From: Prevotella sp.
GTDB taxonomy: Bacteria > Bacteroidota > Bacteroidia > Bacteroidales > Bacteroidaceae
Assembly: GCA_017470345.1 (NCBI GenBank)
Contig: JAFUEP010000040.1
Span: 1 to 49,863 of the forward strand
DNA length: 49,863 bases
Direction of reading: 5' to 3'
Under the pieces are notes generated by a model. That model searched no databases. It was not told where the DNA came from and saw nothing but the letters and a program-made list of their open reading frames with translations. Positions 15,333 to 40,916 of this stretch are shown one piece after another (positions within the stretch are counted from its first letter, which is position 1; every line of letters begins with the position of its first letter). A program made the translations under genes and the position numbers.

Positions 15333-17087
15333 TCATTTATCGACAGCAAAGGGCAGGTACCAGGTGGCAGGGTCGAGCAGATTGGCGGTGATGCCCGAGG
15401 CTGCGCCCTCGCCTCGCCGAGCCAGGATGCGTCGGGCCAGATAGGCAGGGTCGTTGCGGCGAAGGGCCACGCGCATAAGATCGTAGAAGCGTTGGCCCTC
15501 GAAGGCTAACTCTAGAGCCTCCTCGTCGACGATGAGGTCTTCTACGGCTTTTATCTGCTCGTCAAGGGAGCCATCGGGCATTGTGTAGAACTCGTTGCGC
15601 TCGGTATAGCCACAGCCGCGTGAGTGGATGCCCAGAGTGGTGTAGCCGGCGGGGTCTTCGGTGCGCAGAACGTAGTCGGTGTTGCGGAAGTCAAACTGTG
15701 CCAGGTAGGTGCTGTCAGCGGGGTATTGGTGCTGCATCTCGGCAATGACACGGTTGTTCACTCCCGTTGAGAGGAAGCGGAAGGCCAGCTCGGGCATGCC
15801 GGCACGGTTGAGCGCCTCAGCGAGATGGAGGTAGACCATGGCCCGTCGCCAGATGTGCACGTTGGTGCTGTAGAAGTATTTCTCGAGCCGCTGCTGCGTA
15901 GGGCGTCCGGTGGTGGTCGAGAGTCCGCCTATATTGTAGTTGTAGGTGTGATAGACGGCCGAGAGGCGTAGGTCACCAGCGCGGTTTTCGGTGAGGTTTG
16001 AGGGGGCGTAGCCCACATCGCCGGTGGTGGTGAGGTTGCAGTAGACCTGTCTGGCCGAGAGCTGGCGCAGGGCCTCTGAGGGGAGAAGCGAGTAGTAGCC
16101 GTCGTTCAGCGTATTAGTATTGAACAGGCTGGGCAGGGAGCTGTAGTTGGGCGAGGTCGGGATGCTGTCGCCGGGTGTCATGGAGATCAGTTCTCCGGCT
16201 TCGCTGTAGTGCTCGGATGTCGGCCCGAAGGCTTGCAGCGACCATGCGTCGGTGTATCGCTCATATTTGCCGTCGTCGCGTGTCCACTCCAGCCGCATCG
16301 AGCCTAAGGGCCAGGCGGTGTTGGTGCCGTTGCGTGTGGATATGTAGTGATAGTAGCAGAGGGCTGCCTCGCGGTAGTTGCCGGCCCAGAGGTTAAGCTC
16401 TCCCATCAGGACATGGATGGGAAAATACGTGAGTCGCGACTCCACGTTGCCGATGGTGCCGTAGCCAGGCATCTCGGTGGTGGCCCAGGGGGCGAGGTCG
16501 TCGATGAAGTAGCTGCAAACTTGCTGAAGGCTATACAAGGGGAAGCTCGTCTCGTCGATGTTCATGTCGAGCAGGGGCTCAGTGACGAAGGGCACCTGTC
16601 CGTAGATGAGTGCGAGTTGGAAGTAGGTCCAGGCGCGGTAGGCTTTCACTGCGGCATATTCCTTCTCGAATATGCGGCGCCCCTGACTGTTTTTCAGTGT
16701 GGTGTCGGCCTTGGCCAGGAAATAGTTGCAGTTGTTGATGACTGCATAGTAGTCGCGTGGCCTGTTGTAGCGATTGGCAGTGCCGATGTTGAACAATGCC
16801 ACGTCGCGAACGTCGGCTGGTGCATAGTTGTTGACATCGACCAGGTCGCCGCGCACTTCGCCCAGCACGATGGTGCGGTCGGCCAAGGCTTGCATCTGCT
16901 TCATGATGCCCGTCACGTTGTAGATGGAGTCGGTGGCTCGGCTGAGCATGCCCTCGTCGGCGAAGCGCACCATGTCGGAGTCTTGGTCGAGCATGTCGGC
17001 GCATGAAGTAATCATCATGCTAAATGCTAAATGACAGATGATAAATGACAGACCTGTCAGTCGTCCTTTGCTTATCTTTGTAATCAT
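15333..17087 (-). CDS. SusD-like outer-membrane glycan-binding lipoprotein (SusD-1)
   Basis: This 584-residue SusD/RagB-family lipoprotein would cap its SusC partner and deliver oligosaccharides to it at the cell surface. The lipobox is MMITSC with the lipidated Cys near residue 29. The N-terminal TPR-like helices include AVKAYRAWTYFQLALIYGQVP. The C-terminal FEGQRFYDLMR motif is a hallmark of the family. It is the last gene of the long leftward operon, 14 nt after SusC-1. The signal peptide segment FIICHLAFSM is encoded by a 7-nt period repeat (17017-17051), so a change by one unit would shift the frame. Length is normal for the family. Start chosen as the only ATG giving a full signal peptide. 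Confidence 0.93.
   Translation of the reverse strand: MITKISKGRLTGLSFIICHLAFSMMITSCADMLDQDSDMVRFADEGMLSRATDSIYNVTGIMKQMQALADRTIVLGEVRGDLVDVNNYAPADVRDVALFNIGTANRYNRPRDYYAVINNCNYFLAKADTTLKNSQGRRIFEKEYAAVKAYRAWTYFQLALIYGQVPFVTEPLLDMNIDETSFPLYSLQQVCSYFIDDLAPWATTEMPGYGTIGNVESRLTYFPIHVLMGELNLWAGNYREAALCYYHYISTRNGTNTAWPLGSMRLEWTRDDGKYERYTDAWSLQAFGPTSEHYSEAGELISMTPGDSIPTSPNYSSLPSLFNTNTLNDGYYSLLPSEALRQLSARQVYCNLTTTGDVGYAPSNLTENRAGDLRLSAVYHTYNYNIGGLSTTTGRPTQQRLEKYFYSTNVHIWRRAMVYLHLAEALNRAGMPELAFRFLSTGVNNRVIAEMQHQYPADSTYLAQFDFRNTDYVLRTEDPAGYTTLGIHSRGCGYTERNEFYTMPDGSLDEQIKAVEDLIVDEEALELAFEGQRFYDLMRVALRRNDPAYLARRILARRGEGAASGITANLLDPATWYLPFAVDK
17017..17051. repeat. Heptanucleotide tandem repeat (5 units) in the SusD-1 signal peptide
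   Basis: Five consecutive 7-nt units on the plus strand, ATGCTAA, ATGCTAA, ATGACAG, ATGATAA, ATGACAG, lie within the coding sequence for the SusD-1 signal peptide. Confidence 0.85.
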
Positions 17088-17101
17088 AATTGCTATTTTT
17101 A

Positions 17102-20100
17102 TTACAGGTTGATCTTAATTCCCGCCACGACGGAGCGGCTGTGTGGCAGCAGACCGATGTCGATGCCCTGTCCGATGACGTTGCCCGTGACGGCCGTCTC
17201 AGGGTCGCCGCCCAGATAGTTTGAGAAGGTGAGCAGGTTCTGTCCTTGGAGCCAGAACTCCAAACCCTGCAGGAACTGCGTATTGAGGGGGAGACGATAG
17301 CTCAAAGTGACGCTGTGGAGCTTCAGGTAAGATCCGTCCTCAATCCAGCGGTCGCTGAATCGGCCGTTGCCCATGGGGTCTTGGAAGGTGATGCGGGGTA
17401 TGTCGGTCTGGTGACCCTCGCCATGCCAGCGGCGCGTCATGGCCATGGTTTGGTTCATGAAGCGCTGTCCACCCTCGAGTTGCGAACGCTGGTAGTTATA
17501 GATGTCGTTGCCCAGCGAGTAGGTCAAGGCAGCATCAAGGCTCCAGCGCTTCCAGTGCAGGGCGGTGGTGACAGTGCCGTAGGCGTCGGGATTGGGATTG
17601 CCGATGACGGTGCGGTCGCGCTCGTCGATGACACCGTTGTGGTCGAGGTCGGCAAAATGTATGTCGCCCGCTCCGAAATAGACGTGGTCCACACCATTGT
17701 CGGCCAACCTGTAGAGGCTGGCGGCATTGGCCTCCTCAGTAGTAGCGAAGACACCCTCGGTGCGGTAGCCGTAGAATACGTTGGCGGCCTGGCCCACAGC
17801 CGTGCGGATGGTTGCACCGTAGCATTCGGTGTCGATGGTGCCGCCGGGCAGTTCGGTCACCTTGTTGTTATAGTGGCCCACGCTGGCCCCCAGTTCCCAC
17901 TGCCAGGAGGGAGTGGTGACGAGACGGCCTAGCACGTAGAGGTCGAAGCCCTTGTTGGTCAGTGTGCCGCCGTTGTGCCAGTTCGACTCCAGTCCGGTGA
18001 GGTAGCTATGCTGTTGCAGGGTGAGCAGATGGCAGGTCTTGGCACTGAAGAGCTGCAGTCGCACGTTAAGGCGGTTGCGGAGGAAAATGCCGTCGAGGTC
18101 AAGGTGCAGGCGGCGGGTCGCCTCCCACTGCAGACGGCTGTTGCCGATGTTGCCCAGGCTAAGACCGAGGATGGCGTCGAGGTAGCGTTGGGAACTGAAG
18201 TAGCTCTTGGCAGCGAGGTGGCTGATGTCGCTGTTGCCGGCGACGTCGACGCCAGCATCCAGACGCAGGTAGTCGATGCCAGGCGTGTGGGCAAACCAGG
18301 GCTCGGCTGTCAGCACCCAGCCTGCCTGCACGCCGGGGAAGATGCCCCAGCGCGTGCCGAAGGCCTTCACACCGCTTTCTGCATCCAGTCCGAAGTCGGA
18401 AGAGGTCTCAGCTGTGAGATTGAACTGCAGGAAATAGCGCTGCCGATAATCGTAGTTGGCCTGTGCATACCATGCTATCGAGGTCCATGAGGCACTGTTG
18501 CCGTCGACACTGGAGTTAGGTCCGCTTTGGATGAAGGGGGTCTTGTCGTTGCCGGTGTCGTAGCCCAGTTGGCTGTCGAGCGAGTAGCTCTCCCAGTTGA
18601 TGCGTGCGCCCCCAAAGATGCCGATGCTGTGGTTTTGGTAGCGTTGGTGCCAGTTGAGGCGGGTGTCGCTCATCACGGAGTTTTGCTTGGAGAAGAGCGA
18701 GCGCACCTCGTTTTCTCGTGTGGATGCCAAACGGTAGACGTAGTAGTCGGGCACACCGTAGATGGGAATGTAGTATTTCTCGTTGGTGCTTACAAGATTG
18801 TAGCTGAAATGCTCGCTGATGTTGAGATGCTGGCTGAAGTCATAGCGAGGTGTGACGGCTATGTTGAGCATTGAGTTCTGGAAGTGGTTCTTGTTCTCAG
18901 CATCACCATAGATGTTGAGGGCATAGGGATTCCCGAGTTTCCAGTTGTAGGTGGCATAGCCCAGCAGAGCCTCCTCCAGATAGGTCTCGTCGTTGACGTC
19001 GAGGTGGTTGCTTTGCTTCCCGGCAGCGAAGGCATAGGGGCTGAGGAAAGGACTCTTCGCATAGGCCAGGAACGAGGGTGAGGAGACGGGACCGTCGTCA
19101 TAGCCTGCCGGTGTGCCGTCGTTGCGCAGGTTGCGGTTGAGGTTGGAGAAGGAGGCATCGAAGCGCGTCTTGAAATGCGTCGAGAACTTGATGTCGGTGT
19201 TGAAACGAATGTTCAGCCGGTTCATGGTGTTGAATTCGAGCGTGCTCTGGGCGTTGGCATAGCCAAGTGAGAGATTGTAGTTGGCCACGTCGTCGCCACC
19301 CTCTACGTTGATGCCGTAGTTCTGGGTGAAGGCCGTGCGGTAGACCTGATCCTTCCAGTCGGTGTTGTTGTGATATTGGTTGTAGTAGTGATAGTTGGGA
19401 TCTTCGTTGAGGAACTTGAAGTCGCTCACGGTGGTGTTGGTCGAACGGAGCAGTTCGCTGGCGTAGCTTCGATACTGCTCGACGCCCATCATGTCGATGA
19501 ATTTGGGCTCAAGCGTGATGGATGCCGAAAGCGTGGCGGTGATGCGCGTAGCCATCGACTTGTTGCGACGTGTGTCGATGAGAATGACTCCGTTGGCTCC
19601 CTTGGCACCGTAGAGCGACGTGCCGTTGCGCATGACGGTGACGCGCTCAATGTCGGCCGTGGAGATGTTGGCCAGGACATCGTTGTAGAAACCGCTGTGC
19701 ATCATTTGCCTGCTACGCTGCTGGTCGAAGACGAAACCGTCGACAACGATAAGCGGCTGGGCGTCGGCATGAAGGGAGTTCAGCCCACTCATGAACATCA
19801 CGCTGCCGATGGCGGGCGTGCCACTGCGACTGACGGTGTGGACCTGCGCGCCAAGCTGCCGCCGGATGTCGTCGCCGATGGTGAGCGAGGTGGTGTAAGG
19901 GCTGACGGCGGCCGTGGCGTCGGCGGCGACGGCGAATGGGGTCAGCGAGGCGGGCTGGAGCGCCGCGTCGGGCATCTCTTCATGGCGACCTATGCCAAGA
20001 AGCGTAGTGTTGAAGTCGGGGGCACTGATGCTGAGCACCGAGCAGTAGTCGGGCACGCTGATTTCGTAGCAGCCATCGTCGCCGGTGAGGGCACTGAAGC

Positions 20101-20320
20101 CTTCCGTCTGGTCGCTGCTGACGATGGCGCCCGCCAGCGGTTGGCCGGAAGCAGCATCGAACACGCGTCCGCGTAGCACTCGCTGTGCAGCTGCCGGGGC
20201 GAAGAATGAAGCGAGAAAGAAAGTCAGGCAGAGCGAAACCAGGACGCAGCTTCTCATTCTGCCTCTATCAGTTGTATGGATGGTTGCTGTTTTCATGATT
20301 CTATTGTTTTTTCTGTTCAT
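17102..20320 (-). CDS. SusC-like TonB-dependent outer-membrane transporter (SusC-1)
   Basis: This 1072-residue SusC/RagA-family porin imports oligosaccharides across the outer membrane using TonB energy. After an N-terminal leader and signal peptide (hydrophobic CVLVSLCLTFFLASFFAPAAA), a carboxypeptidase-regulatory-like domain begins at RVLRGRVFDAASGQPLAGA. The plug domain follows (PLIVVDGFVFD, DIERVTVMRNGTSLYGAKG, NGVILIDTRR), then a ~22-strand barrel ending in VVAGIKINL. The plug motif reads RNGTSLYGAKGANG where most relatives have LKDASATAIYGSRGANG, so this is a divergent member. The start at 20320 is 3 nt from the stop of the preceding FAS1 gene, suggesting coupled translation. ATGs at 20296 and before RSCVLVS are alternatives. 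Its partner is SusD-1 downstream. Confidence 0.93.
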   Translation of the reverse strand: MNRKNNRIMKTATIHTTDRGRMRSCVLVSLCLTFFLASFFAPAAAQRVLRGRVFDAASGQPLAGAIVSSDQTEGFSALTGDDGCYEISVPDYCSVLSISAPDFNTTLLGIGRHEEMPDAALQPASLTPFAVAADATAAVSPYTTSLTIGDDIRRQLGAQVHTVSRSGTPAIGSVMFMSGLNSLHADAQPLIVVDGFVFDQQRSRQMMHSGFYNDVLANISTADIERVTVMRNGTSLYGAKGANGVILIDTRRNKSMATRITATLSASITLEPKFIDMMGVEQYRSYASELLRSTNTTVSDFKFLNEDPNYHYYNQYHNNTDWKDQVYRTAFTQNYGINVEGGDDVANYNLSLGYANAQSTLEFNTMNRLNIRFNTDIKFSTHFKTRFDASFSNLNRNLRNDGTPAGYDDGPVSSPSFLAYAKSPFLSPYAFAAGKQSNHLDVNDETYLEEALLGYATYNWKLGNPYALNIYGDAENKNHFQNSMLNIAVTPRYDFSQHLNISEHFSYNLVSTNEKYYIPIYGVPDYYVYRLASTRENEVRSLFSKQNSVMSDTRLNWHQRYQNHSIGIFGGARINWESYSLDSQLGYDTGNDKTPFIQSGPNSSVDGNSASWTSIAWYAQANYDYRQRYFLQFNLTAETSSDFGLDAESGVKAFGTRWGIFPGVQAGWVLTAEPWFAHTPGIDYLRLDAGVDVAGNSDISHLAAKSYFSSQRYLDAILGLSLGNIGNSRLQWEATRRLHLDLDGIFLRNRLNVRLQLFSAKTCHLLTLQQHSYLTGLESNWHNGGTLTNKGFDLYVLGRLVTTPSWQWELGASVGHYNNKVTELPGGTIDTECYGATIRTAVGQAANVFYGYRTEGVFATTEEANAASLYRLADNGVDHVYFGAGDIHFADLDHNGVIDERDRTVIGNPNPDAYGTVTTALHWKRWSLDAALTYSLGNDIYNYQRSQLEGGQRFMNQTMAMTRRWHGEGHQTDIPRITFQDPMGNGRFSDRWIEDGSYLKLHSVTLSYRLPLNTQFLQGLEFWLQGQNLLTFSNYLGGDPETAVTGNVIGQGIDIGLLPHSRSVVAGIKINL

Positions 20321-20322
20321 TC

Positions 20323-22047
20323 TTACTCTTCTTCATGGGGTCTGAGGATGATGCAGTCAAGACGCAGCGTGCGGGTATAGCGCGAGGACAGGCTGTTGGT
20401 GACGTTGCTTTGCACGCGCAGCGTGACTTGCGGTTCGTCGAGGTCGAGGGCGCAGGTGGGGAACTGCAGGTTGGTGGCCACGAGGACGGTGTCGACGACG
20501 TCGGGCCGCGTCTCGTAGTTGACTGAGTTGTCGGCGGGGCGCCGCAGGGTGGTGCTGACAACGGAGTCGGCCTGGTTGCGGTAGGTCAGCGTGAAGCGCA
20601 CGCGACAGGGCAGGCGGTCGTCGTCGGAAGCATTCTCGTTGTAGGCAATGGCCGGCACGAAGACGCAGTAGATGTCGTAGCCGATGTTGGAGAGTTGGTC
20701 GGGAATGTTGTAGGTGACGCTGGTCGACGAGCTGGTGGTGAGGGGTTGTGCCTCGACAAAGCTGTTGTCCGACACTTTGCCGTAGAAGGCGTTGCTCACG
20801 GGAACAGCGCGCTGGCTGAGCGGCTCACGGGCCTGAACGATGGTGTCGATGTAGTGGGTCTGTTCGGTCTCCACCTTCACCTGCTGGAAGAAGGTTTGGC
20901 GCTTGTCAATGTTCCACTTCGGCTCGACGAGCACCTGCCCGTTGCTGCACTCCACAGCCTCGGCTCCGCTGAGTGCGCCTCCGTCGGCATAGGGATGGTA
21001 ATAGACGTAGTATCGCTCATCGGCATAGTTGGGGCGGTTGCGGTAGAGCGTCTGATAGGCCGTGGAGATGAGCGAGTCGGCCGGCGACGGCTGGGCGTTG
21101 AGGTTGAAGATGGTGCCGTCGGCGATGGCCCGGCGGGTGTGGGTGAGCACCATCGAGTCGCGCTTGGAGGTGGCGTTGGTGTAGTTGAAGTAGTGGATGT
21201 ATTCATCGTACATCCGCCGCCACGCTTCGTCAGTGGGCGCGAGAGCCAGGTAGTTGGAGTCCTCGCGGTTGATGTTGCCATACTCGCGCAGCAGGGAGTT
21301 GGTGAGGTGGAAGACGGAGTCGAGATAGACCGTTTTGCCGTCGACGATGTCGCCGGCTACGCTCTCGGCAGCGTCGAACTCGTAGACGTTGTAGCTGCTG
21401 AGGAAACGATAGAGCGAGTCGGTGCGCCCTGTCTGCGAGAGGGCCTCGAAGACATTGGCGAAATAGGGCTCAGGCTGGTCGATGGTGTAGAGCACCCCGT
21501 TGGCAAAAAACTGGTTGCTGCTCAGCAGACGCGAGTTGCCGAAAGCATCGTGTGTGAGCACCTCATACTTGCCGTTCATCATCTTCACCGAGTCGTTGGT
21601 GAGCGATGATACGCTGCGGTTAAACAGGGCGATGTGGTTCTGAACGAACTGGCGTATCACCTGGTTGTCGGCGTCGCGAGTGCCGTCGGCCTTCTCCTTG
21701 CTGTAGCGACTGGCGAGCGTCTCGGCCTCCGCGGCCGTGAAGTGGGCGTTGGTGGGTGCGAAGACTGTGAACATCTGGCTGCTGGCCAGGCGGGCGTCAT
21801 AGCCCACGGCCTCGACTACACGGCAGAAATTAGTCAACTCGGGATTCTGCTTCATGGCTGTCCATAGCGTGCCGCTGAGCTGAACGTCTTCAGCGTAATG
21901 GTCATCCCACTGATCTGAGCAGGAAGCGGAAAACAAAGAGGATATCGTGAAGCAGGCGGCGCATAGCAATAGCGCGGCCATTTTCTTAGCTTCCTGTCCT
22001 GCGTTGTCAGACATTTTATTCTTGGATTTCATAATTCTTCTGTTCAT
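20323..22047 (-). CDS. FAS1 (fasciclin)-domain surface lipoprotein, Fas-C
   Basis: This ~574-residue lipoprotein has lipobox LFSASC followed by SDQWDDHY. Two FAS1-like domains follow: one starts at LSGTLWTAMKQNPELTNFCRVVEAVGYD with the FTVFAPTNAHF signature, the other includes NVFEALSQTGRTDSLYRFLSSY and YLALAPTDEAW. The C-terminal ~200 residues are beta-rich and of unknown type (SSTSVTYNIPDQ ... TLRLDCIILRP). FAS1 domains mediate adhesion and protein or glycan contacts. Here a role as accessory surface binder for the SusCD complexes is inference. I chose the ATG at 22047 (MNRRIMKSK), 28 nt after the upstream stop. The longer frame to 22134 overlaps the previous gene and is unlikely, and MKSKNKM at 22032 is also possible. 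The leader resembles those of SusC-1 and SusC-2. Confidence 0.88.
   Translation of the reverse strand: MNRRIMKSKNKMSDNAGQEAKKMAALLLCAACFTISSLFSASCSDQWDDHYAEDVQLSGTLWTAMKQNPELTNFCRVVEAVGYDARLASSQMFTVFAPTNAHFTAAEAETLASRYSKEKADGTRDADNQVIRQFVQNHIALFNRSVSSLTNDSVKMMNGKYEVLTHDAFGNSRLLSSNQFFANGVLYTIDQPEPYFANVFEALSQTGRTDSLYRFLSSYNVYEFDAAESVAGDIVDGKTVYLDSVFHLTNSLLREYGNINREDSNYLALAPTDEAWRRMYDEYIHYFNYTNATSKRDSMVLTHTRRAIADGTIFNLNAQPSPADSLISTAYQTLYRNRPNYADERYYVYYHPYADGGALSGAEAVECSNGQVLVEPKWNIDKRQTFFQQVKVETEQTHYIDTIVQAREPLSQRAVPVSNAFYGKVSDNSFVEAQPLTTSSSTSVTYNIPDQLSNIGYDIYCVFVPAIAYNENASDDDRLPCRVRFTLTYRNQADSVVSTTLRRPADNSVNYETRPDVVDTVLVATNLQFPTCALDLDEPQVTLRVQSNVTNSLSSRYTRTLRLDCIILRPHEEE
21956..22035 (-). repeat. 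Leader segment shared with SusC-2 (copy in Fas-C)
   Basis: This 80-nt segment, coding for the start of the Fas-C signal peptide, aligns without gaps to 29209-29288 at the start of SusC-2 (53 of 80 bases by my count). Both encode an MKxKxxMSD ... LLCAA-type leader. Confidence 0.6.
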
Positions 22048-22075
22048 GCGATGGCAATTCTTTTCTTTCTCTCTC

Positions 22076-24100: not shown

Positions 24101-24155
24101 TGCTACAATAATCATAACTCTTTTCTACTTTTTTATGTACTTAACGTCTGTAAGT

Positions 24156-25877
24156 CTATTCGCTAATCTCAAAAATCGACTTGTCGCCGCTTCCGAAAGC
24201 AGAATTCTGTACGAGGTGCTTGTTCACCTTCAGTTCTTCTTCGTTGTAGGGCCAGAAGATGGCATCGAGGAGCTTCAGCCGACTCTCTGCGGCTGACTTG
24301 TTGTTGGTATACTTGCGTCCGGCCTGGCTGACAAGGTAGTTGGTGTTGCCTTCGCGCATGGAGCGACGGACAAGGTCGAACCACCTCTTACCCTCGAACA
24401 TCAGCTCGCGGTTGCGCTCGTCGTAGACCAGGTTGAGCATGGATGTCTTGGTGGTATAGCGGCTGTAGGTCAGCGCCGATGTGGTCAGCGAGTTGCCGTA
24501 TGAACGACGGTTGACGGCATCGACCAGGGTGAAAGCCTGCCGAAGCAGCGCCAGACCCTCGTCTCCGAGTGTGCCGGAGTTCGTGGAATCGGCCATGAGC
24601 GTGAGGGCTTCGGCCTTCATCAGCATGACGTCGGTGAGCCGGTAAATGATCCAGTTGGCATGGCATCGCTCCTGGGGCCAACGCTGTCCATAGTAAGCAG
24701 TGTAGGGGTTGGTGGTGATGTTTACTGTGGCATCTTGACTGGCGTATTTTGCCACCACCTGCGATGTGGCGTTGCGTGAGATGCACTCCCAGGAACGGGC
24801 GTCGTAGCGGTTGAGGTAGATAGCGAATTGCCCGTCGCTGATGTCGTTGGCCACAATGTCAGAAGGGCATAGCGTTCCGTTGCCCTTGTCCTGACTGCCG
24901 AAGCGCAGGCTGATGCTCTTGTTGGGAAAACTGGACTGGTTGTCGTCGAAATAGAGTTCGAAGATGCTTTCGGAGGAGTTGCCTGTGACGAAGATGTCGT
25001 AGAAGGCGCGTCCGTAGTAGTTGCCTGTGGCCATGACATCACTGATAAGCGGATAGCCATTGATGAGGCGGTCGACGCGTCCTGAGGAGACGCCTCCCAC
25101 CCGCTCTGCCTCCTCGTTGTAGGCGCGCAGCTTCGACTGTAGGACGGCATCGGCGTGCTCGACAGCGCGTTCATAGTCCTGTTTCCAAAGATACATGTCG
25201 CAAAGCATGGCATGGATAGCATCCTGCGTGATGCGGCTGGTCTGATAGACCGGCTTGGTTTCCGGGTAGAAACGTACGGCATCGTTGATGACGCGCTCGA
25301 GGTCGTTGGTGATGGAGTCGAGCACCTCATGGAAGGGCGTGGCAGGCAGATCCATCGTCTGCGTATCTTCGATGAAAGGTTGGGTGGAGAAGGGCACGTC
25401 GCGGAAGGTACGTATGAGGTAGAAATAGCAGAGGTCACGCACTGCCGAGGCCTCGGCGATGGTGGCGCGCAATTCGCTTTGTGTGTAGTTGGGATCGCGC
25501 TCTGCCACCTTCGGCGCATAGAGCAGAATGGTGTTGCAACGGTTGATGACGTCGTAGAAGGGCGCCCATGTGCTGTAGGCATTGTAGGAGTTGATGTTCT
25601 CTTGGACAATGTTGCCCATGTTGGTGTCGTCGCTGATGCGCTCGCCGCCCATGAGGTTCTCGCTGCGTGCCTCTCCCCAAATGATAGCGCGGTCAATCCA
25701 CTCTTGCGACTGCATGGCGAGGTAGCAGCCGGCCATGACATTCTCTACGTCGCTCTCCTCGTCCCAGAAATTGTCGAGCACAATCTGGTCAAGCGGCTTA
25801 ACCTCCAAGAAATCGGAGCAACTGCAGAAAATTAAAAGATTAAAAAATGATAAGATTAAGATATTCTGAAGTTTCAT
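24156..25877 (-). CDS. SusD-like outer-membrane glycan-binding lipoprotein (SusD-2)
   Basis: This 573-residue SusD/RagB lipoprotein has lipobox LIFCSC followed by SDFLEVKPLDQIVLDNFW, the usual mature N-terminus of the family. Helical TPR-like units follow (EASAVRDLCYFYLIRTFRDVP), then the C-terminal LVYDERNRELMFEGKRWFDLVRR motif that identifies SusD proteins. It pairs with SusC-2, whose stop is 27 nt upstream. The signal peptide (ILILSFFNLLIF) is encoded by four 8-nt units (25831-25862), a repeat pattern that parallels the 7-nt repeat in SusD-1. Sequence divergence from SusD-1 is large, so the two pairs probably bind different ligands or different parts of one ligand (inference). Confidence 0.94.
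   Translation of the reverse strand: MKLQNILILSFFNLLIFCSCSDFLEVKPLDQIVLDNFWDEESDVENVMAGCYLAMQSQEWIDRAIIWGEARSENLMGGERISDDTNMGNIVQENINSYNAYSTWAPFYDVINRCNTILLYAPKVAERDPNYTQSELRATIAEASAVRDLCYFYLIRTFRDVPFSTQPFIEDTQTMDLPATPFHEVLDSITNDLERVINDAVRFYPETKPVYQTSRITQDAIHAMLCDMYLWKQDYERAVEHADAVLQSKLRAYNEEAERVGGVSSGRVDRLINGYPLISDVMATGNYYGRAFYDIFVTGNSSESIFELYFDDNQSSFPNKSISLRFGSQDKGNGTLCPSDIVANDISDGQFAIYLNRYDARSWECISRNATSQVVAKYASQDATVNITTNPYTAYYGQRWPQERCHANWIIYRLTDVMLMKAEALTLMADSTNSGTLGDEGLALLRQAFTLVDAVNRRSYGNSLTTSALTYSRYTTKTSMLNLVYDERNRELMFEGKRWFDLVRRSMREGNTNYLVSQAGRKYTNNKSAAESRLKLLDAIFWPYNEEELKVNKHLVQNSAFGSGDKSIFEISE
25831..25862. repeat. Octanucleotide period repeat (4 units) in the SusD-2 signal peptide
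   Basis: Four imperfect 8-nt units on the plus strand, ATTAAAAG, ATTAAAAA, ATGATAAG, ATTAAGAT, encode part of the SusD-2 signal peptide. Confidence 0.6.
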
Positions 25878-25904
25878 AACCCTTGAATTCTTTAGTTTTT
25901 AGTT

Positions 25905-28900
25905 TTAAAAATCTATCGTCGCACCCAGTGTGTAGGACTTGGCGCGTGGCGTTTGTGCCTGGTCGATGGCGGCGCCATAGCTGCTATAACTGATTTCGGG
26001 GTCAACACCGGTGTATCTAGTCAGGCAGAACAGGTTGTTGGCACTGAGGTAGAAGCGCATTCCGTGCAGCCCTATGCGCTTGGCACTCTTGTCTGGCAGC
26101 GAATAGCTGATCTGTGTGTAGTTCAGACGGAGGAAGGAGCCGTCTTCGACGAAGCGGTCGCTGACGAGCGTGTTGTAGTTTGACGAAGAGCCGTACATGG
26201 CGCGTGGGATGGTGGTGACGTCGCCCTCCTTGCGCCAACGGTAGTTGACGGCCTGGCTCTGGTTGTTGTTCGAAACCATGGCTTGGGCGTCGAGACGTGC
26301 CAGGTTGAGAATCTTGTTGCCTAAGCGATAGTTGAACTGCGTGTTCAGGCGCCACCGGCCGTAGTTGAGCGTGACGCCGAAGCCACCTGTGAGCTTGGGC
26401 AGCGAGCTGCCGAGGTAGACAATGTCGAGCTCGTTGATGTTGCCGTCGTAGTTCAAGTCTTCGTAGATGGCATCGCCACCCTTGAAGCGATAGTTCTTGC
26501 CGGGCAGGTCGTCGCTGCTGGAGAAGGTGTACATCATGCGCAAAGGCATGTCCTGATCGTCGTAGATGACAGTGCCGTCGTCGGCGATGGCCACGGGGGC
26601 CGTCTTGCCGTCGGCGATGAACTGCTGCTGCTCCTGGCGCGTCATGGCGGCGAAAGTCGAATATTGGTACTGGTAGACACCCTTGAAGCGGAATCCGTAG
26701 ATGGCGCCGAAGGGGTTGTTCAGCTGAACGCGCTGCAGAACGCTGCGGTTCTCTTGGGTGAACTTGATGTTCATGGTCTCCAGAGTGGTGGGGTCCATGG
26801 TGAGGATCTTGTTGCTGTTGTTGCCGAAGGTGGCATTGAAGTCGGCCGTGAACTTGCCTGCCTTGATGATACGGTTGGTGTTGACGTTGAACTCCCATCC
26901 CGTGTTGCGCATTGAGCCCACGTTCTTGTAGGCCAGTTCGCTGAAGCCGCTGTTGGTGGGAATCTTCACGGGCATGAGCATGTTGCGGCGAGTGGCCGAG
27001 TACCATTCGAGGGCGATGTTGAGACGGTCGTCAAGGAAATGGATGTCGGTGCCGACGTTGTACTGCTCGTTCGTCTCCCACTGCAGTCCGCTCAGACGGA
27101 TATTATTGGGATACATCACGGCCATATCGACATACTGATAGTTGGCAGGCGAGTATTTGCTTTCGTAGAGATAGTCGGCTGAGGGCTGGTTGCCCACGCG
27201 GCCCCAGCTGGGCCTGAACGAAAGCATGGACAGCCAAGAGCGCACGCTCTCCATCCAAGGTTCGTCGATGATGTTCCAGCGCAGCGAGACGGCAGGGAAA
27301 TAGCCCCATCGGCGTTCGGGGCCAAATTTGGTGGTGCCGTCGGCTCGGATGCTGAAGTCGGCCATATACTTGCCCTTGTAGGCATAGTGGGTGGAGAAGG
27401 TGTAGTACATCGAGCGCCACTGGCTGAAACTGGACGAGGGTGCCCCGTCGATGATGCCGCCCGAGCCAGTGCTGGTGATGCCGCCCGAGGGCAGACCGTA
27501 GGTAGAGGTGGCCTGACTGGTCGATTCTCCGCTGACGAGTTCGAAGCGGGCCATCATCATCAGCGAATGGTCGTCGTTGTTGAAATGGGGGATGACGGTC
27601 AGCGTCTGCTTGGTGTTGAAGGCTACGCTCTTCGACGAGCCGGTGTAAGCCTTGTTCACACCCGAAGTCCAAGCCGTGGTGACGAGCTCTGAGGGGTAGT
27701 AGCGATTGGTGAAATTGTTGAAGATGTTCATGTTGGCGCGGGCCTCCCAGTTTAGCTGCCATTGGTCGTCGTTCATGCCAAGGAGCTTGTACTTCAGGAT
27801 GAGCTCGGGCGTGATGTCGTAGGTGCGCTCATGGTTGCGTGCCAGGTTGGCTGAGGCAACGGGGTTGACGAGCGACATCTGGTTGCTGCCACCGCCGAAC
27901 ACGGAGGAGGCCGTCTGCAGCATCTCGTAGTAGTTGGCGGTGGCCTGTCCGTCCTCGTCTTCCTCGTAGATGGCCATGTTTGGCATTTTCTTGTAGGCGA
28001 TGGCGAGCAGTTGGTCGTAGTTCTTGCGGTTCTTGGTATAGGTGAGCGAGAAGTTGGTTGAGATGGTGATGCGGTCAGAGACATAGTAGTCGAGCGCCAC
28101 GCGTGTCGACATGCGCTGCAGGCGCTGTTTGATGACCGAGCCGGTCTCGTTGTCGAAACCGCCGGAGATGCGGAACGTGGCCTTCTCGCCGCCTCCGCTG
28201 ACGACAAGGTAGTGATTCTGGCGCAGGCCCCACTGCGTGACGGCATCCACCCAGTCGGTGTTGTTGTTGTACTGCTGATATTCTGAGAATGTCGGGGCGT
28301 AGTTTATCTCGTCAATGTCAGAGGCCACGTCGCTTTGCCTGGGGTTGAAGTAGCTCTCCTTGAGCAGCATGGTGTAGTCGTCGCCGTTGAGCATTTTGTA
28401 GCCTTGGGGCTGATAGGTGCCCGTCAGCCGGAGCGAATAGCTCAGCCGCGGCGCACCTCGCACACCGCGTTTGGTGCGTATCTCGATGACGCCATTGGCA
28501 CCGCGCGAGCCGTAGATGGCGGTGGCGGCGGCATCCTTGAGAACGGTGACGTCCTCGATGTCCTCGGGGTTGACATTGAGCAGCTGGGCGAACTTCTCGT
28601 CGTTGGCAGTAGAGACGTCGAAGTCGCTCATGTCAACGTTCCACTCGTTGCCGTTGACGACGATGAGAGGATTGGCATCGACGGCACTCGAGATGGAGGC
28701 GGCACCACGGAGGCGCATGGTGCTGCCAGAGCCGAGGTTACCGCTGTTCGAGACGATGTCGAGACCCGAGATGCGTCCCTGAAGGGCTTCGTCGACGGTG
28801 GTGAAGGCCATACCCTCTACGTCCTTCATTGAGAGGCTCTGCACGGCCATCGACGCCTCGCGCTCGGGTATGGCCAGTCCGCCGCCGTTGACGCGTCTCT

Positions 28901-29285
28901 TGGCCTTGACGGTCACCTCCTGGATGGTGGTGGCCGAAACCAGCTTGATGTTGTAGGTGCTGCGATTGATGGCCAGCACCTGCGACTTGCATCCTACGTA
29001 GCTGAAGCGCAGCTTGTTCTTCTGGTCTTTAACCTTCATGGAGAAATGACCGTTGAGGTCGGTGGTGGTGGCGTTGATGATGCGGCCCGTGGCATCAACC
29101 TCGCAGACGGAGGCTCCCATGACGGGGTCGAAGTCGTCGCTCACCGTGCCGCTGACGCTGGCGACGTTCTGCGCCTGTGCGCAGAAGGATGAGTGGAAAA
29201 TCATGATTGCTGCACACAGCAATATCTTCGTCATCGTCTTAGCTCTCAATCCTATATAGTCTGACATGATTCTTTTTGGCTTCAT
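25905..29285 (-). CDS. SusC-like TonB-dependent outer-membrane transporter (SusC-2)
   Basis: This ~1126-residue SusC/RagA porin has a signal peptide ending near CAQAQ and a carboxypeptidase-regulatory-like domain (VSGTVSDDFDPVMGASV). The canonical plug motifs are present: GRISGLDIVSNSGNLGSGS, MRLRG, PLIVVNGNEW, EDVTVLKDAAATAIYGSRG and ANGVIEIRTKRG. The barrel ends in SYTLGATIDF. Unlike SusC-1 it keeps the standard LKDAAATAIYGSRGANG sequence. I chose the ATG at 29285 (MKPKRIMSDY), which aligns with the Fas-C leader. A start at 29351 would overlap the upstream FAS1 gene by 11 nt. SusD-2 follows 27 nt downstream. Confidence 0.94.
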   Translation of the reverse strand: MKPKRIMSDYIGLRAKTMTKILLCAAIMIFHSSFCAQAQNVASVSGTVSDDFDPVMGASVCEVDATGRIINATTTDLNGHFSMKVKDQKNKLRFSYVGCKSQVLAINRSTYNIKLVSATTIQEVTVKAKRRVNGGGLAIPEREASMAVQSLSMKDVEGMAFTTVDEALQGRISGLDIVSNSGNLGSGSTMRLRGAASISSAVDANPLIVVNGNEWNVDMSDFDVSTANDEKFAQLLNVNPEDIEDVTVLKDAAATAIYGSRGANGVIEIRTKRGVRGAPRLSYSLRLTGTYQPQGYKMLNGDDYTMLLKESYFNPRQSDVASDIDEINYAPTFSEYQQYNNNTDWVDAVTQWGLRQNHYLVVSGGGEKATFRISGGFDNETGSVIKQRLQRMSTRVALDYYVSDRITISTNFSLTYTKNRKNYDQLLAIAYKKMPNMAIYEEDEDGQATANYYEMLQTASSVFGGGSNQMSLVNPVASANLARNHERTYDITPELILKYKLLGMNDDQWQLNWEARANMNIFNNFTNRYYPSELVTTAWTSGVNKAYTGSSKSVAFNTKQTLTVIPHFNNDDHSLMMMARFELVSGESTSQATSTYGLPSGGITSTGSGGIIDGAPSSSFSQWRSMYYTFSTHYAYKGKYMADFSIRADGTTKFGPERRWGYFPAVSLRWNIIDEPWMESVRSWLSMLSFRPSWGRVGNQPSADYLYESKYSPANYQYVDMAVMYPNNIRLSGLQWETNEQYNVGTDIHFLDDRLNIALEWYSATRRNMLMPVKIPTNSGFSELAYKNVGSMRNTGWEFNVNTNRIIKAGKFTADFNATFGNNSNKILTMDPTTLETMNIKFTQENRSVLQRVQLNNPFGAIYGFRFKGVYQYQYSTFAAMTRQEQQQFIADGKTAPVAIADDGTVIYDDQDMPLRMMYTFSSSDDLPGKNYRFKGGDAIYEDLNYDGNINELDIVYLGSSLPKLTGGFGVTLNYGRWRLNTQFNYRLGNKILNLARLDAQAMVSNNNQSQAVNYRWRKEGDVTTIPRAMYGSSSNYNTLVSDRFVEDGSFLRLNYTQISYSLPDKSAKRIGLHGMRFYLSANNLFCLTRYTGVDPEISYSSYGAAIDQAQTPRAKSYTLGATIDF

Positions 29286-29288
29286 AAT
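29209..29288 (-). repeat. Leader segment shared with Fas-C (copy in SusC-2)
   Basis: The 80-nt 5' coding segment of SusC-2 that aligns without gaps to 21956-22035 in Fas-C, including identical TTCATAAT at the start-codon end and GCAATA and TTAGCT blocks. Confidence 0.6.
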
Positions 29289-29340
29289 ACATTTCGTTAA
29301 TGTAGTCGGAAATTGGCTTACTCCCCCAGAGGGGTGCTCT

Positions 29341-31935
29341 TCACTCTCCACTCCCTATGCCTCCACCGGGGGTCCAGTCCATGGGTTTGAGCTGGTCGGC
29401 ACTGTAGAACAGCGGCCGGTCGATGAGGTGCACCACGGCGTAGGACGAGCTGTAGAGGTTGCCCGAGGCGGCCGTCTCCGGGTCTTTGCTGGTGAAGAGG
29501 TATTCGCGACACATATTATTATATAGTGCGGCATCCGAGGTCAGCACGGTGCGCTCGTGGTGCAGGGCGTCGGTGATGCTGATGTGGCTGTTGTCGGCAT
29601 CAACCTGAAGCGAGAAGAACTTGCGGTTCTCGGGGTTAAGCTTCGATGTCTCATAGCGTCCGTTGACAGGCCCTTGGCCCATGTAGACGGAGAAGTCCTG
29701 GATGTGGTAGCGCAGGAAGTCGAGGATGCGTTGCCGTATCTGGTAGCGCATATGCTTCTTGGCGTCGCGGTCGCCGCCCCAGGCCTCGTCGGTCTGTGCC
29801 TCAAGGTCTTCCCAGTAGGGCAGCAGGTGGGCGTCGTGCAGGGAGTCGAGGCTCTCGTTGGTGGGCACCCAGATGGTATAGTGGTAGTTGTCGAAGAGGC
29901 GTATGTTGAAGTCCACGCACGAGTAATTGTCATCGATGACAGAGGTGGTGAGGTTATACTGTGCCGAGTCGGGATCACCGCCGCGCAGCAGGTCGAAGAA
30001 GCGGGCATACTCGGGATGCTCACTCAGCGTCTTGTAGACCGACTTCCGGCTTGAGTTGGGCACCTCGCTCTCCACGACGTAGGCCTTGCCATTGCCGTTT
30101 TTCGTCTGGTCGAAGATCTGAGTCACGCCGACCGGTCGCTTTTGCTCTATCTGCAGTCCGCCCTCGATGGTCATGCTGCCCGCAACGCCGCTCTGGCTGA
30201 CGCGGATGGTGGCACCGCCCTTAGTGCGATAGTAGAGGTTGCCGTCCTCGACATCACCCACGACGATGAGGTTGTCGAGCACGTCGCGCAGGCGGTTCTC
30301 CACCTGCGAGGACGTCGCGTCGCTGAGGGCGTCGCCCACGGTGTTGGTGTCGATGTCGTAGCGATAGCGGTGGGCGCTGACGGTAGCACGGTCGTAGTTG
30401 TAGTAGAACTCATAGAGCACGGTCTGCGACGAGCCGAAAGAGCAGGGGTCAACGTAGTGCAGCAGACTCGTGTTCGTGGGCACAAAGAAACTGTAGTATG
30501 AGTCCATAGAGTTCAGGTAGGGCTTGAAGCCCAGTTTGTCGATGCCCCAGTAGATGATGTTCATCGTCTCAGTATGTACCAGTGCGGGGAAGGCCACGCT
30601 CGAGTAGGTGGCCGGTGCGAAGACCTTGTTGGTGAGATAGACCACACCGTTGCAGCCCATGAAGCATGAGTCCACGTCGCTCTTCTTCACTCCCATCGTC
30701 ACCTTGGCGTCGTTGACGATGTTGTCGAACTTCGAGGGCACGGTGCTGATGAACTCGGGCACCATGTTGACGTTGAGCAGCTCGACGAGCACCTGGTCAG
30801 GCACGTTCGCCCACTCGTGGTACTGGTCTTGCAGGGCCAACCCGTCGTGGTTCCACCAGTCGTCGAGGGCTTGGTTCGAGGGAACGAGCATGGCACCGCA
30901 GTCGTAGTGCAAATCCTTGCCTTGGGTGTTGGTGTACATATAATGGTTCATGCCCGGGTCGAAGGACAATAGTGCGCTGACCGGCTGGCGGCTAGGATCG
31001 CGGTCCAGCTCCTGACGGTTCTGCGAGCTGAAGTATCGCAACACGAAGACCGAGTCTTGCCCATTGCCGTTGCCGGCAAGGCGGTTGTAGGTGAGCGTAG
31101 CCTCCTCGCTGTAGTAGGGCGCGCAGAAGCGGTCGATCAGCGTGCTCCATTGACTCATTGAGGGGTGGTCGCGCAGTATCTGGGCCATGTTGTCGCTCGA
31201 GAGCATCACGCCCTCCATGCGCTGTATGTAGCCGTTCTTGCAGGTGATGTCGCGCTCCACGATGCGCTGGCCGTTGACCCATGCCTCCTGGCGCGAGGTG
31301 GCTTGCCCGTTAGTGAGCATCTGCAGGTCGTCGTCGGTGATGTTGTTGTACTGCATGAAGCGGGGCAGGAAGTGAATCATGGGCTGCGCCTCGTCGTCCC
31401 TGAGCAGCACGATGCCTTGCGGCTTGTGGCGGTGGGCATCCCAGTAGCGCGTCTGGGGCATCTGCGACGGCATCCAGCGGGCAACCGAGTCGTAGGGCGT
31501 CAGCGACGACTCGCGGCGCATGCACTGGCCCTCCAGGGGGTCAGGCGAGGCCTCGACGTTTGAGAGCAGCTCCACGAGATAGGCATTGTTGATCATAGCC
31601 GAGTTGAGCAGCAGCTTCTTCTGGGCGGCCGAGAGGGCGGCGTAGCTGCTGACGCCCCAGGGGTTGCTTGCAAACCAGCGGCTGAAGGCCTCGTCGTCGG
31701 CAGCGAAGAGGGTCTTCGACCCCGTCTGGCGCATCACCTGGTCGTAGCCCAGGTCGTCGATGAGCGAGAGCATCGTCTGATAGTTGCCAGCCTCTTGCAG
31801 CCGTTCGTAGATGGAGTTGCCCAGCCATTCGGGCTGCCCCTCCAGGTCCTTGTTGTCGCACGACAACAGCGAGGCGATGGCTGCCAATAGCATGGCGGGC
31901 GAAAGAAAAATCAATTTGCAGAATCTACGGTACAT
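29341..31935 (-). CDS. Large FAS1 (fasciclin)-repeat surface lipoprotein, Fas-A
   Basis: First gene of the long operon. This 864-residue lipoprotein has lipobox ASLLSC followed by DNKDLEGQPEW. I see about four divergent FAS1-like repeats. Repeat 1 includes SIYERLQEAGNYQTMLSLIDDLGYD with TLFAADDEAFSRW. Repeat 2 includes MSQWSTLIDRFC with AMLVPSNQALDDWW. Repeat 3 includes NIIYWGIDKLGFKPYLN with YSFFVPTNTSL. Repeat 4 includes SVYKTLSEHPEYARFFDLL with YTIWVPTNESL. The VPTN/FAPTN-type strand is the family signature. The C-terminus is Gly/Pro-rich (WTPGGGIGSGE). Anchored by lipid and probably surface exposed, it may bind host or plant glycoprotein or glycan near the SusCD pores (inference). The start is placed by the promoter at 31966-31994. 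Confidence 0.88.
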   Translation of the reverse strand: MYRRFCKLIFLSPAMLLAAIASLLSCDNKDLEGQPEWLGNSIYERLQEAGNYQTMLSLIDDLGYDQVMRQTGSKTLFAADDEAFSRWFASNPWGVSSYAALSAAQKKLLLNSAMINNAYLVELLSNVEASPDPLEGQCMRRESSLTPYDSVARWMPSQMPQTRYWDAHRHKPQGIVLLRDDEAQPMIHFLPRFMQYNNITDDDLQMLTNGQATSRQEAWVNGQRIVERDITCKNGYIQRMEGVMLSSDNMAQILRDHPSMSQWSTLIDRFCAPYYSEEATLTYNRLAGNGNGQDSVFVLRYFSSQNRQELDRDPSRQPVSALLSFDPGMNHYMYTNTQGKDLHYDCGAMLVPSNQALDDWWNHDGLALQDQYHEWANVPDQVLVELLNVNMVPEFISTVPSKFDNIVNDAKVTMGVKKSDVDSCFMGCNGVVYLTNKVFAPATYSSVAFPALVHTETMNIIYWGIDKLGFKPYLNSMDSYYSFFVPTNTSLLHYVDPCSFGSSQTVLYEFYYNYDRATVSAHRYRYDIDTNTVGDALSDATSSQVENRLRDVLDNLIVVGDVEDGNLYYRTKGGATIRVSQSGVAGSMTIEGGLQIEQKRPVGVTQIFDQTKNGNGKAYVVESEVPNSSRKSVYKTLSEHPEYARFFDLLRGGDPDSAQYNLTTSVIDDNYSCVDFNIRLFDNYHYTIWVPTNESLDSLHDAHLLPYWEDLEAQTDEAWGGDRDAKKHMRYQIRQRILDFLRYHIQDFSVYMGQGPVNGRYETSKLNPENRKFFSLQVDADNSHISITDALHHERTVLTSDAALYNNMCREYLFTSKDPETAASGNLYSSSYAVVHLIDRPLFYSADQLKPMDWTPGGGIGSGE

Positions 31936-31965
31936 AATTATTTTAGTTAGCTTTTAAATTGGTTG

Positions 31966-31994
31966 CAAAAGTACACAAATGATATGCTGTCAAC
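31966..31994 (-). promoter_or_regulatory. Promoter of the FAS1-SusCD operon
   Basis: On the minus strand a -7 box TACTTTTG (31966-31973) lies 17 nt downstream of GTTG (31991-31994), close to the TTTG/TAnnTTTG consensus. It is 30 nt upstream of the Fas-A ATG and is the only good promoter I see for the seven-gene unit. Confidence 0.6.
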
Positions 31995-32378
31995 GTGCAA
32001 TTATTGTTGCTTTTGAGGGAAAAATTGGTCAGTGGCAGGAAAAAACGAGGGACATCGCGGATTGGGGCAATAAATGATGCCCTTCATCGTGGTCACGTTA
32101 TCCAGCCCAGCCATGCGCTTGCGCTCAAGCCTCTGTCCTATACAGTTTGGTTATAGCCTAATATGCATCTGACTTCATTGATATGTCACCTCTATACTTT
32201 TTTAATCGTATTGATTTGCGATTATAATCTTTGATTGGCTTCCTGCAATACACTCTTCATTCCGGAATAGATCTACGATTCATCCCAAATTCGTGCTTTT
32301 CTGGTGGGGAAAATGGGGCTCACTTTGCACGAATCCTTGCAGATGTGGGGAAAATGTGGGGAATATTGAGAAAAGAAA
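31995..32378. other. Non-coding stretch between operon promoter and tRNA-Leu
   Basis: There is no credible gene. It contains an 8-base inverted repeat ATTCGTGC/GCACGAAT (32289-32296, 32327-32334) and four G-runs in two paired copies of TGGGGAAAATG (about 32305-32361). I cannot assign a function. Possibilities are regulatory DNA for the operon or a remnant of an old insertion at the tRNA. Confidence 0.5.
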
Positions 32379-32415
32379 AATCGCTAAATCTCTTGTATTC
32401 AGAGGTTTAGCGATT
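32379..32415 (-). terminator. Rho-independent terminator of tRNA-Leu
   Basis: Arms AATCGCTAAATCTC and GAGGTTTAGCGATT (14 bp, one wobble) enclose a 9-nt loop. On the minus strand the hairpin is followed by a T-rich tract (TTTTTCTTTT). It starts 18 nt after the tRNA 3' end. Confidence 0.85.
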
Positions 32416-32433
32416 GCTTCCGAGCTTAACTCG

Positions 32434-32515
32434 TACCCAGAGCCGGGGTCGAACCGGCACGGGTTGCCCCACTGGTGTTTGAGACCAGCGCGTCTACCGA
32501 TTCCGCCATCTGGGC
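32434..32515 (-). tRNA. tRNA-Leu (anticodon CAA)
   Basis: Read on the minus strand it forms acceptor GCCCAGA with TCTGGGT (terminal G-U pair), anticodon stem CTGGT/ACCAG with loop CTCAAAC giving anticodon CAA, a long class II variable arm (TGGGGCAACCCGT) and T-arm GCCGG-TTCGACC-CCGGC. The discriminator base is A and CCA is not encoded. Confidence 0.95.
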
Positions 32516-32589
32516 ATTGAAATGCGGCTGCAAAGTTACGAAGTTTTTTTGAATTAGGCAAAAGAATCTCCTAAAAATCTTAAAAATAC

Positions 32590-32620
32590 TTGGAAATCTC
32601 AAAGATATTGCTTATCTTAG
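32590..32620 (+). promoter_or_regulatory. Promoter of the GDP-mannose pyrophosphorylase gene
   Basis: TTGG (32590-32593) and TATCTTAG (32613-32620) are spaced by 19 nt, each one base from the TTTG/TAnnTTTG consensus. Transcription would begin just after, which rules out an upstream ATG at 32590 and fixes the start at 32653. Confidence 0.6.
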
Positions 32621-32652
32621 CAGCCGAAATCTTTACATCCGGATATATTAGC

Positions 32653-33744: not shown

Positions 33745-33766
33745 GCTCCCCACTCCACTGCCAATC

Positions 33767-33804
33767 AAAAAAGCCTGCGCGAAACGTTTCGCGCAGGCTT
33801 TTTT
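33767..33804. terminator. Strong bidirectional Rho-independent terminator
   Basis: A perfect stem GCCTGCGCGAAA / TTTCGCGCAGGC is flanked by six A on the left and six T on the right, so it works on both strands. It serves manC and the convergent 1523-residue gene. Confidence 0.95.
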
Positions 33805-33820
33805 AATTCTTCAATCATCT

Positions 33821-38392: not shown

Positions 38393-38452
38393 ATCGTTAA
38401 AGTTTAATCCGTAAGTTTCAGCCGATGTTTAGTCGAAAGGACAATGTGCGTG

Positions 38453-38484
38453 CAAATATACGCATTATTTATGAAAACGGCAAA
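38453..38484 (-). promoter_or_regulatory. Promoter of the 1523-residue mosaic protein
   Basis: On the minus strand a -33 TTTG (38481-38484) and a -7 TATATTTG (38453-38460) are separated by 20 nt. The start codon is ~60 nt downstream. The 21-bp repeat array begins 16 nt upstream of the -33 box. Confidence 0.7.
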
Positions 38485-38500
38485 TAAATGAAAGGAAAAA

Positions 38501-38616
38501 AAACGTCGGACAAAACTAAAATCACAGTGTGACGAATTAAAATCCCAGTGTGATTTTAATAAATCTCAGTGTGACGAAATAAAATCACACTGAGATTTTA
38601 GTTTTGGACGACGTTT
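38501..38616. repeat. Four 21-bp tandem repeats nested in a 32-nt inverted repeat
   Basis: Outer arms 38501-38532 and 38585-38616 match as inverted repeats at 29 of 32 positions. Four units start at 38518, 38539, 38560 and 38581, exactly 21 bp apart, with core AAAATCnCAGTGTGA in units 1-3 and AAAATCACACTGAGA in unit 4. An inner hairpin TTAAAATC/GATTTTAA (38537-38559) is perfect. A run of eight A (38496-38503) puts T8 after the structure on the minus strand. It lies 35 nt after the metallopeptidase stop and just upstream of the next promoter. Confidence 0.9.
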
Positions 38617-38651
38617 CCCGTACGAACTTGTTCCCCTTGCAATGGCTTTGC

Positions 38652-40784: not shown

Positions 40785-40807
40785 ATTTCCTTGATGATTT
40801 TTTTATT

Positions 40808-40891: not shown

Positions 40892-40916
40892 ATCTTTTTA
40901 TTGTTTAAGTGTTTCT

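Follow-up and report, generated by a model that had tools for sequence, protein, structure and literature searches.

A conserved seven-gene cassette of FAS1 lipoproteins and two SusCD pairs in Prevotella, probably for the capture and import of pectic material

The closest described counterpart of the locus reported here is the rhamnogalacturonan I (RG-I) polysaccharide utilization locus (PUL) of Bacteroides thetaiotaomicron. In the portions of the published account accessible to us, its surface glycan-binding protein (SGBP) BT4167 binds RG-I, and its two SusCD pairs are BT4164/65 and BT4168/69 (PMC8002723). This locus, PUL77, is overexpressed on purified RG-I, according to the available text of a further study (PMC4769552). 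FAS1 proteins are known from a different context. The review passages at hand describe them as mediating cell-surface interactions in animals and plants, and state that prokaryotic members typically have a single FAS1 domain (PMC6032426). Here we describe a seven-gene cassette from Prevotella sp. (assembly GCA_017470345.1, contig JAFUEP010000040.1) that joins three FAS1 lipoproteins with two SusCD pairs; the window is the whole stretch of 49,863 nucleotides that was analysed. With a probability of roughly 0.7, the seven genes form one outer-membrane unit for glycan capture and import, conserved in Bacteroidota and directed at pectic material.

The cassette occupies window positions 15333–31935 on the minus strand. 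Its gene order, FAS1-SusC-SusD-FAS1-FAS1-SusC-SusD (hereafter F1-C1-D1-F2-F3-C2-D2), had been proposed from the letters alone and is confirmed by seven open reading frames (ORFs), all of which exceed the family cut-offs (22 bits for FAS1, PF02469; 368 for SusC, TIGR04056; 23.1 for the SusD Pfam families). The first gene, F1 (29341–31935; PF02469, 46.6 bits), encodes a lipoprotein with four FAS1-like segments by HHalign. It is followed by C1, a SusC/RagA-type transporter (25905–29285; 678 bits), and by D1, a SusD-type lipoprotein lid (24156–25877; PF07980 76 bits, PF14322 48.8 bits). F2 (22076–24115; PF02469, 53.7 bits) and F3 (20323–22086, or from an ATG start at 22047; 45.2 bits) are again FAS1 lipoproteins, F3 having two FAS1-like segments by HHalign and a C-terminal region. 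C2, the second SusC-type transporter (17102–20320; 520 bits), has its main TIGR04056 match from profile position 125, and the lid D2 (15333–17087; PF07980 39 bits, PF14322 31.6 bits) closes the cassette. As the sequence-only reading had also stated, Pfam and NCBIfam assignments place no enzyme gene among the seven. The gaps from F1 to D2 measure 55, 27, 40, –11 (or 28 if F3 starts at 22047), 2 and 14 nt, close to the range of about 3 to 55 nt given before. As for the single good promoter that had been claimed, a candidate read by eye upstream of F1 (TTG ... TACTTTTG; 31966–31993, minus strand) has a perfect –7 box of the Bacteroidetes type, TACTTTTG at 31973–31966, and an imperfect –33 element, judged against what we take to be the Bacteroidetes –7/–33 consensus.

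The host genome, probably metagenome-assembled (68 contigs, 61.6% complete), carries the whole cassette in identical order at three further places. The four copies are 31–68% identical to one another, and the copy on contig C16 stands apart in each of the seven. A FAS1 search of this genome (E up to 0.001) returned eight matches, two per contig on four contigs, all within cassettes. Of the genome's 20 SusC proteins that exceed the family cut-off, 8 lie in the four copies, a large share of its uptake systems.

A scan for F2 across one genome per species (84,980 species) yielded 431 places, the best 80 of which were kept and fetched. Nearly all of these lie in gut or rumen genomes of Prevotella type, including those of the isolates Hallella seregens, Xylanibacter rodentium and Marseilla massiliensis. 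The exact seven-gene order is present in 60 of the best 80; 12 are cut by a contig end, five have one gene split, two have F2 doubled and one has F2 alone. As far as the contig allows, gene order is thus intact in 79. The doubled F2 genes stand in tandem in otherwise normal cassettes (L028 and L029). Eight more distant places were also fetched, and the seven untruncated ones all show the seven-gene order; the eighth is truncated. Within the genome's own family, 214 of 301 genomes have F1 matches, weak ones included, spread over 18 of 30 genera, and F1 exceeds 100 bits in 12 of 59 relatives. Five regions from two Bacteroides-like genera of this family comprise four with all seven genes and one, L144, with an antisense ORF called where D1 would lie. 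Across the phylum, 395 genomes were sampled and no more than two candidates per genome were scored; long F1 matches (120–166 bits) came from seven genomes, which belong to two further families within the class. All eight regions drawn from these genomes have F1-C1-D1-F2-F3, with C2 next in the two that reach it. Genus and family of several of the compared genomes were assigned by inference.

An identical seven-gene order that recurs three more times in the host genome and in 60 of the best 80 loci is more than chance would produce. The seven genes also diverge together. Pairwise distances among them correlate at 0.84–0.95 over 64 loci, and at 0.73–0.89 for pairs more than 35% apart (Mantel test of F2 against C2, 0/999). 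Part of this correlation is expected for any linked genes, since related sequences share a history. Taken together, conserved order and co-divergence rule out that two unrelated SusCD units came to lie side by side by chance. The genome survey therefore bears out the linkage of FAS1 genes with SusCD genes that the sequence-only reading had suggested. The scattered FAS1 genes that would have spoken against it were not seen, apart from one orphan F2 in the best 80 loci: all eight FAS1 matches of the host genome fall within its four cassettes, and the order is conserved elsewhere.

All three FAS1 proteins have the lipoboxes (C-DNKD, C-SDEPD and C-SDQWDD) and, by eye, the VPTN/APTN motifs that had been noticed earlier as an F/VPTN signature. 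The lipobox evidence is weak by itself, as the same rule flags 32 of 64 C1 proteins. By lipobox and position together, F1, F2 and F3 are lipoproteins encoded beside SusCD, as SGBPs are. The predicted model of F2 (predicted local distance difference test score 87.8) shows a FAS1 pair followed by a C-terminal β-sandwich whose fold matches are like those of a carbohydrate-binding module (CBM). In this model the FAS1 units superpose on FAS1 structures of the periostin/TGFBIp type. Solved relatives found by sequence are mostly the FAS1 parts of periostin, TGFBIp and other FAS1 proteins, along with a few marginal matches. Membership of the F2 and F3 C-termini in CBM6 had seemed likely by eye but found no backing in profile comparison, so that a CBM-like fold is suggested by the F2 model only; nor do the two C-termini resemble each other in profile comparison. 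The proposal that FAS1 proteins take the place of the usual SGBPs thus gains a fixed partnership with SusCD, and with F2 predicted to be FAS1-FAS1-CBM-like, these proteins could act as SGBPs.

The two SusC proteins differ in their TonB box, which we sought as an EVTV-type motif located after the N-terminal CarboxypepD domain and ahead of the plug. This definition is our working assumption, and a degenerate box in C2 is possible under it. C1 of the window has the motif-like stretch EVTVKA. By alignment columns, the motif is present in C1 at 53 of 64 loci and in C2 at none of the 64. By plug anchor, which is missing in 7 of the 64 C1 rows and 11 of the 64 C2 rows, it is present in 48 of 57 C1 proteins and 0 of 53 C2 proteins. 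Distant cassettes have it in 11 of 20 C1 proteins (16 anchored, with some near-misses among the five anchored misses) and in none of 13 C2 proteins (12 anchored); a single one of the tested C2 proteins comes from outside the family. As a control, nine of the 12 other SusC proteins of the host genome could be anchored, and all nine have the motif, as do three of its four C1 proteins, the fourth being without an anchor. TIGR04056 matches two of the four C2 proteins of this genome only from position 125 or 126, and the other two from position 2. Since C2 has no recognisable TonB box while C1 mostly has one, the C1-D1 and C2-D2 pairs are probably unequal. This raises the question of why a SusC protein without the energy-coupling motif is conserved.

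The substrate is suggested by the genes that accompany the cassette. In a tree of cassettes, the window copy falls into clade D with L014 and L015; G633, which the tree does not place, is assigned to this clade because most genes are 64–78% identical. After D2 and a gap of 201 nt, the next gene downstream encodes a GH3 enzyme with CBM6 (12378–15131, minus strand; Pfam). A GH3-CBM6 gene follows the cassette in the L014, L015 and G633 genomes as well (68–77% identity in L145, L146 and L147; in L146 after two other genes). In all three genomes it is followed in turn by a relative of a 939-aa secreted protein with CBM6 (9496–12315, minus strand; PF03422; 40–79% in L145, L146 and L148). Further along the window lie a hybrid two-component regulator (HTCS; 5489–9403, plus strand; Pfam; homologues 67% identical in L146 and 50% in L148), a second GH3 (2960–5209, minus strand; Pfam), a PL1-like β-helix lyase and a CE8-like pectinesterase. 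The lyase (848–2938, minus strand) is 33% identical to a PF00544 pectate lyase, has a CBM6-like domain, with CBM6 and Beta_helix both below cut-off, and has homologues at 79% and 51%. The pectinesterase (102–773, plus strand; PF01095, 28.9 bits against a cut-off of 27) has 223 aa and is 83% identical over 211 aa to a 416-aa relative in L146. HTCS, lyase and CE8-like protein recur in two of the three clade-D relatives, although the CE8-like part in G633 is only 31% identical and belongs to a protein of 1194 aa; L145 continues with other genes. A CE8 esterase and a pectate-type lyase point to homogalacturonan, and the GH3 enzyme could act on xylose or arabinose.

Elsewhere, some distant cassettes lie beside GH106, GH88, GH115, RhaT and catabolic genes of the rhamnose type, and others beside GH28 and pectate lyase; for yet others, no pectin- or RG-I-type genes were seen by eye in the flanks read. 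Genes for GH95, GH2, GH3 and a GH88-like protein lie within about 25 kb of the C16 copy. Neighbours of the window's clade, flanks of distant cassettes and surroundings of the C16 copy thus point to pectin and RG-I. The other clades mostly have partners of their own: DUF6055 downstream in clade A, mostly a 1200-aa protein without a Pfam family (U2) in clade B, and Glyco_hydro_cc with GH51 in clade C. Several further genes around cassettes were recorded. Directly downstream of the clade-D cassette of L014, a single protein combines GH28 and GH10 domains (19194–21743). U2 (L100, 256–3945) and U1 (L108, 2778–5348) represent two families of large proteins that often precede cassettes and have no Pfam match. 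Cas9-like and Cas1-like genes, read by eye, lie some kb after the C34 cassette (L094, 4437–9569).

We propose that F1 together with F2 and F3, as surface lipoproteins, would hold a pectic polymer, which enzymes encoded outside the cassette would cut; in the window these would be the PL1-like lyase, the CE8-like esterase and GH3. C1-D1 would then import the oligosaccharides with TonB energy, and C2-D2, as the second and unequal pair, may bind, gate or pair with C1-D1. A more ambitious version, which we offer tentatively and at odds well below even, is an asymmetric machine in which C1-D1 pumps and C2-D2 serves as a TonB-silent partner (a passive receptor, a gate or one half of a hetero-oligomer), both held and fed by the FAS1-CBM lipoproteins. 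The cassette might then be a general, exchangeable module for pectin, RG-I and arabinan pathways and, with an Svx-like peptidase, for extensin pathways.

Several observations weigh against a pectic import unit. The substrate is not determined by the cassette itself, since the partners in sister clades are of quite another kind (GH51, Glyco_hydro_cc, DUF6055), and some copies sit among housekeeping genes. In L090 (9992–12022) a lone F2 without SusCD stands beside genes that look GH43- and GH29-like by eye. Outside the family, long F1 matches came from only 7 of the 395 genomes, and the regions retrieved end before D2. Profile comparison of the C-terminal regions of F2 and F3 with CBM6 gave nothing (probabilities below 1%), which counts against this reading in the case of F2, and the CBM-like fold predicted there shows no function by itself. 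As to the described counterpart, the part of one source available to us places BT_4163, 4164 and 4165 together in PUL77 with the substrate listed as 'unknown' (PMC13088901), and the likeness rests on gene numbers, not on the sequences of BT4163–BT4169.

The sequence-only reading had favoured an arabinose-rich glycoprotein as the target. On this account, which we regard as unlikely, glycoproteins of the plant cell wall (extensin or arabinogalactan protein) would be captured by the window copy in concert with the DUF6055 metallopeptidase and the GH127 enzymes encoded on its right side. Genes to the right of the cassette do invite it, running DUF6055, CotH, GH127, GH97 and GH127, with DUF6055, both GH127 and GH97 within 18 kb. 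At 58 loci, D2 is followed on its strand by an ORF of 280 aa or more, and at 22 of these the first such ORF is DUF6055. Co-location was assessed in 20 genomes picked to span clades, with uniform placement as the expectation. Within 25 kb of F1 lie 20 of 41 DUF6055 genes, where 1.7 are expected, and 11 of 59 F1 genes have DUF6055 nearby. These totals leave out two DUF6055 rows (a fragment of a counted gene and one under the cut-off) and F1 matches below 100 bits, with split F1 counted once. Among the 59 relatives, DUF6055 exceeds its cut-off in 7 of the 12 with F1 and in 5 of the 47 without (Fisher P ~0.001). GH127 shows no more than weak enrichment near cassettes (8 of 75 against 3.2 expected, nine matches below 100 bits being left out), which argues against the glycoprotein target and leaves GH127 a weak candidate for a general cassette partner.

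The DUF6055 proteins themselves are metallopeptidase-like. HExxH is present in all 21 scanned (of 22; one holds Ns), as well as in the proteins of the window and L011, and a later E follows 21–37 residues on in all 21, giving the gluzincin motif HExxH...E. Svx of Pectobacterium cleaves extensin, according to the part of the report available to us (PMC13164431; earlier work, likewise seen in part, PMC10815107). The NCBIfam Svx/AvrXca profile faintly matches two of the three DUF6055 proteins compared with it, those of L011 and L030, at 32.2 and 35.9 bits against an equivalog cut-off of 625; the window's own protein gave no match. In the host genome only two DUF6055 genes were found (window 38652–40784; L011, 561–1949), each on a cassette contig; two of the three matches are pieces of one gene.

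The neighbouring locus also bears on the matter. Window positions 32371–49696 are 92–96% identical to and collinear with G065, and homology stops at 32371, just past a tRNA-Leu(CAA) gene (32433–32515, minus strand; ARAGORN). In G065 some 200 bp separate the same tRNA-Leu from a PLC-like gene, F1 of cassette A comes about 8 kb further on, and contig C37 of the host genome matches that cassette-A side too. This collinearity implies that the arabinose genes of the window belong with sister cassette A. The break at the tRNA implies that window positions 1–32371 are a block missing from G065 at that place, gained here or lost there. The conserved neighbours of the window copy itself are pectin genes. 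The extensin reading therefore does not fit the window copy and gains support at sister cassette A. The tRNA-Leu(CAA) gene, at 10997–11079 in L105, marks the break in collinearity with G065, and the cassette with its pectin genes lies on a species-variable block next to the 3' end of the tRNA. On the other side, a 1523-aa choice-of-anchor J protein (33821–38392) and, between DUF6055 and GH127, a CotH kinase-like protein (40917–42884) were noted, the latter in the block collinear with G065.

We think it improbable that the cassette imports proteins or peptides in the manner of Porphyromonas RagAB, with the FAS1 proteins as receptors for proteins. C1 and C2 do match RagA among solved SusC-type structures, and the cell-surface interactions mediated by FAS1 proteins in animals and plants would suit such receptors. 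However, the SusC homolog entries 8aa4 and 5t3r outscore RagA, the neighbours are mostly carbohydrate enzymes, and F2 ends in a predicted CBM-like domain. Least probable of all is that the FAS1 proteins are adhesins fixing the cell to plant fibres while the SusCD pairs are ordinary, separate transporters sharing the operon: FAS1 is an adhesion fold and some cassettes lie among housekeeping genes without adjoining enzymes, but all seven genes keep their order and diverge together, and BT4167, at the place of F3, is called an RG-I-binding SGBP in the text available to us.

With the pectic import unit as the preferred reading, what looked like two SusCD pairs plus unknown lipoproteins becomes a module defined and recognisable by its gene order, in which FAS1 proteins probably help bacteria to capture glycans. 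Where Svx-like peptidases adjoin the cassette, in the sister clade, rumen bacteria have a candidate route to the use of plant extensin. Searches that missed most subscription papers found no account of FAS1 proteins in such a cassette; in the part accessible to us, PMC10199937 combines fasciclin, SusC, SusD and polysaccharide utilization.

In its overall layout, the cassette is reminiscent of the B. thetaiotaomicron RG-I PUL (PUL77, BT4145–BT4183). By the gene numbers in the portions of the sources at hand (PMC8002723), this PUL has a C-D-x-x-C-D geometry with the SGBP BT4167 in the place of F3; BT4163 is listed in it as well (PMC13088901). As the gene numbers fit the cassette order, the cassette is of a known kind, and the earlier statement that no such unit had been described functionally is half right: it is the FAS1 nature and the wide conservation that seem to be undescribed in the searchable literature. 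Unlike B. thetaiotaomicron, rumen genomes of Prevotella type hold several diverged copies with other partners.

The tandem SusCD PULs for xylan and arabinan, xusABCD of Prevotella bryantii (in the gene order that we presume for xus) and BT0361–BT0364, likewise have two SusCD pairs, and the arabinan PUL includes a surface binding protein. The review passages that describe them name no FAS1 protein and no enzyme-free order of seven genes, in contrast to the cassette. In utilisomes, as far as the accessible text goes, surface lipoproteins act with SusCD (PMC7618045), as we propose here, whereas the cassette is set apart by its FAS1-CBM-like proteins and its two, probably unequal, SusC proteins. 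Finally, multi-FAS1 proteins of the periostin/TGFBIp type resemble the cassette in that the predicted FAS1 units of F2 superpose on theirs and F1 has four FAS1-like units. However, F1, F2 and F3 are bacterial lipoproteins, and F2 adds a predicted CBM-like domain to its FAS1 pair.

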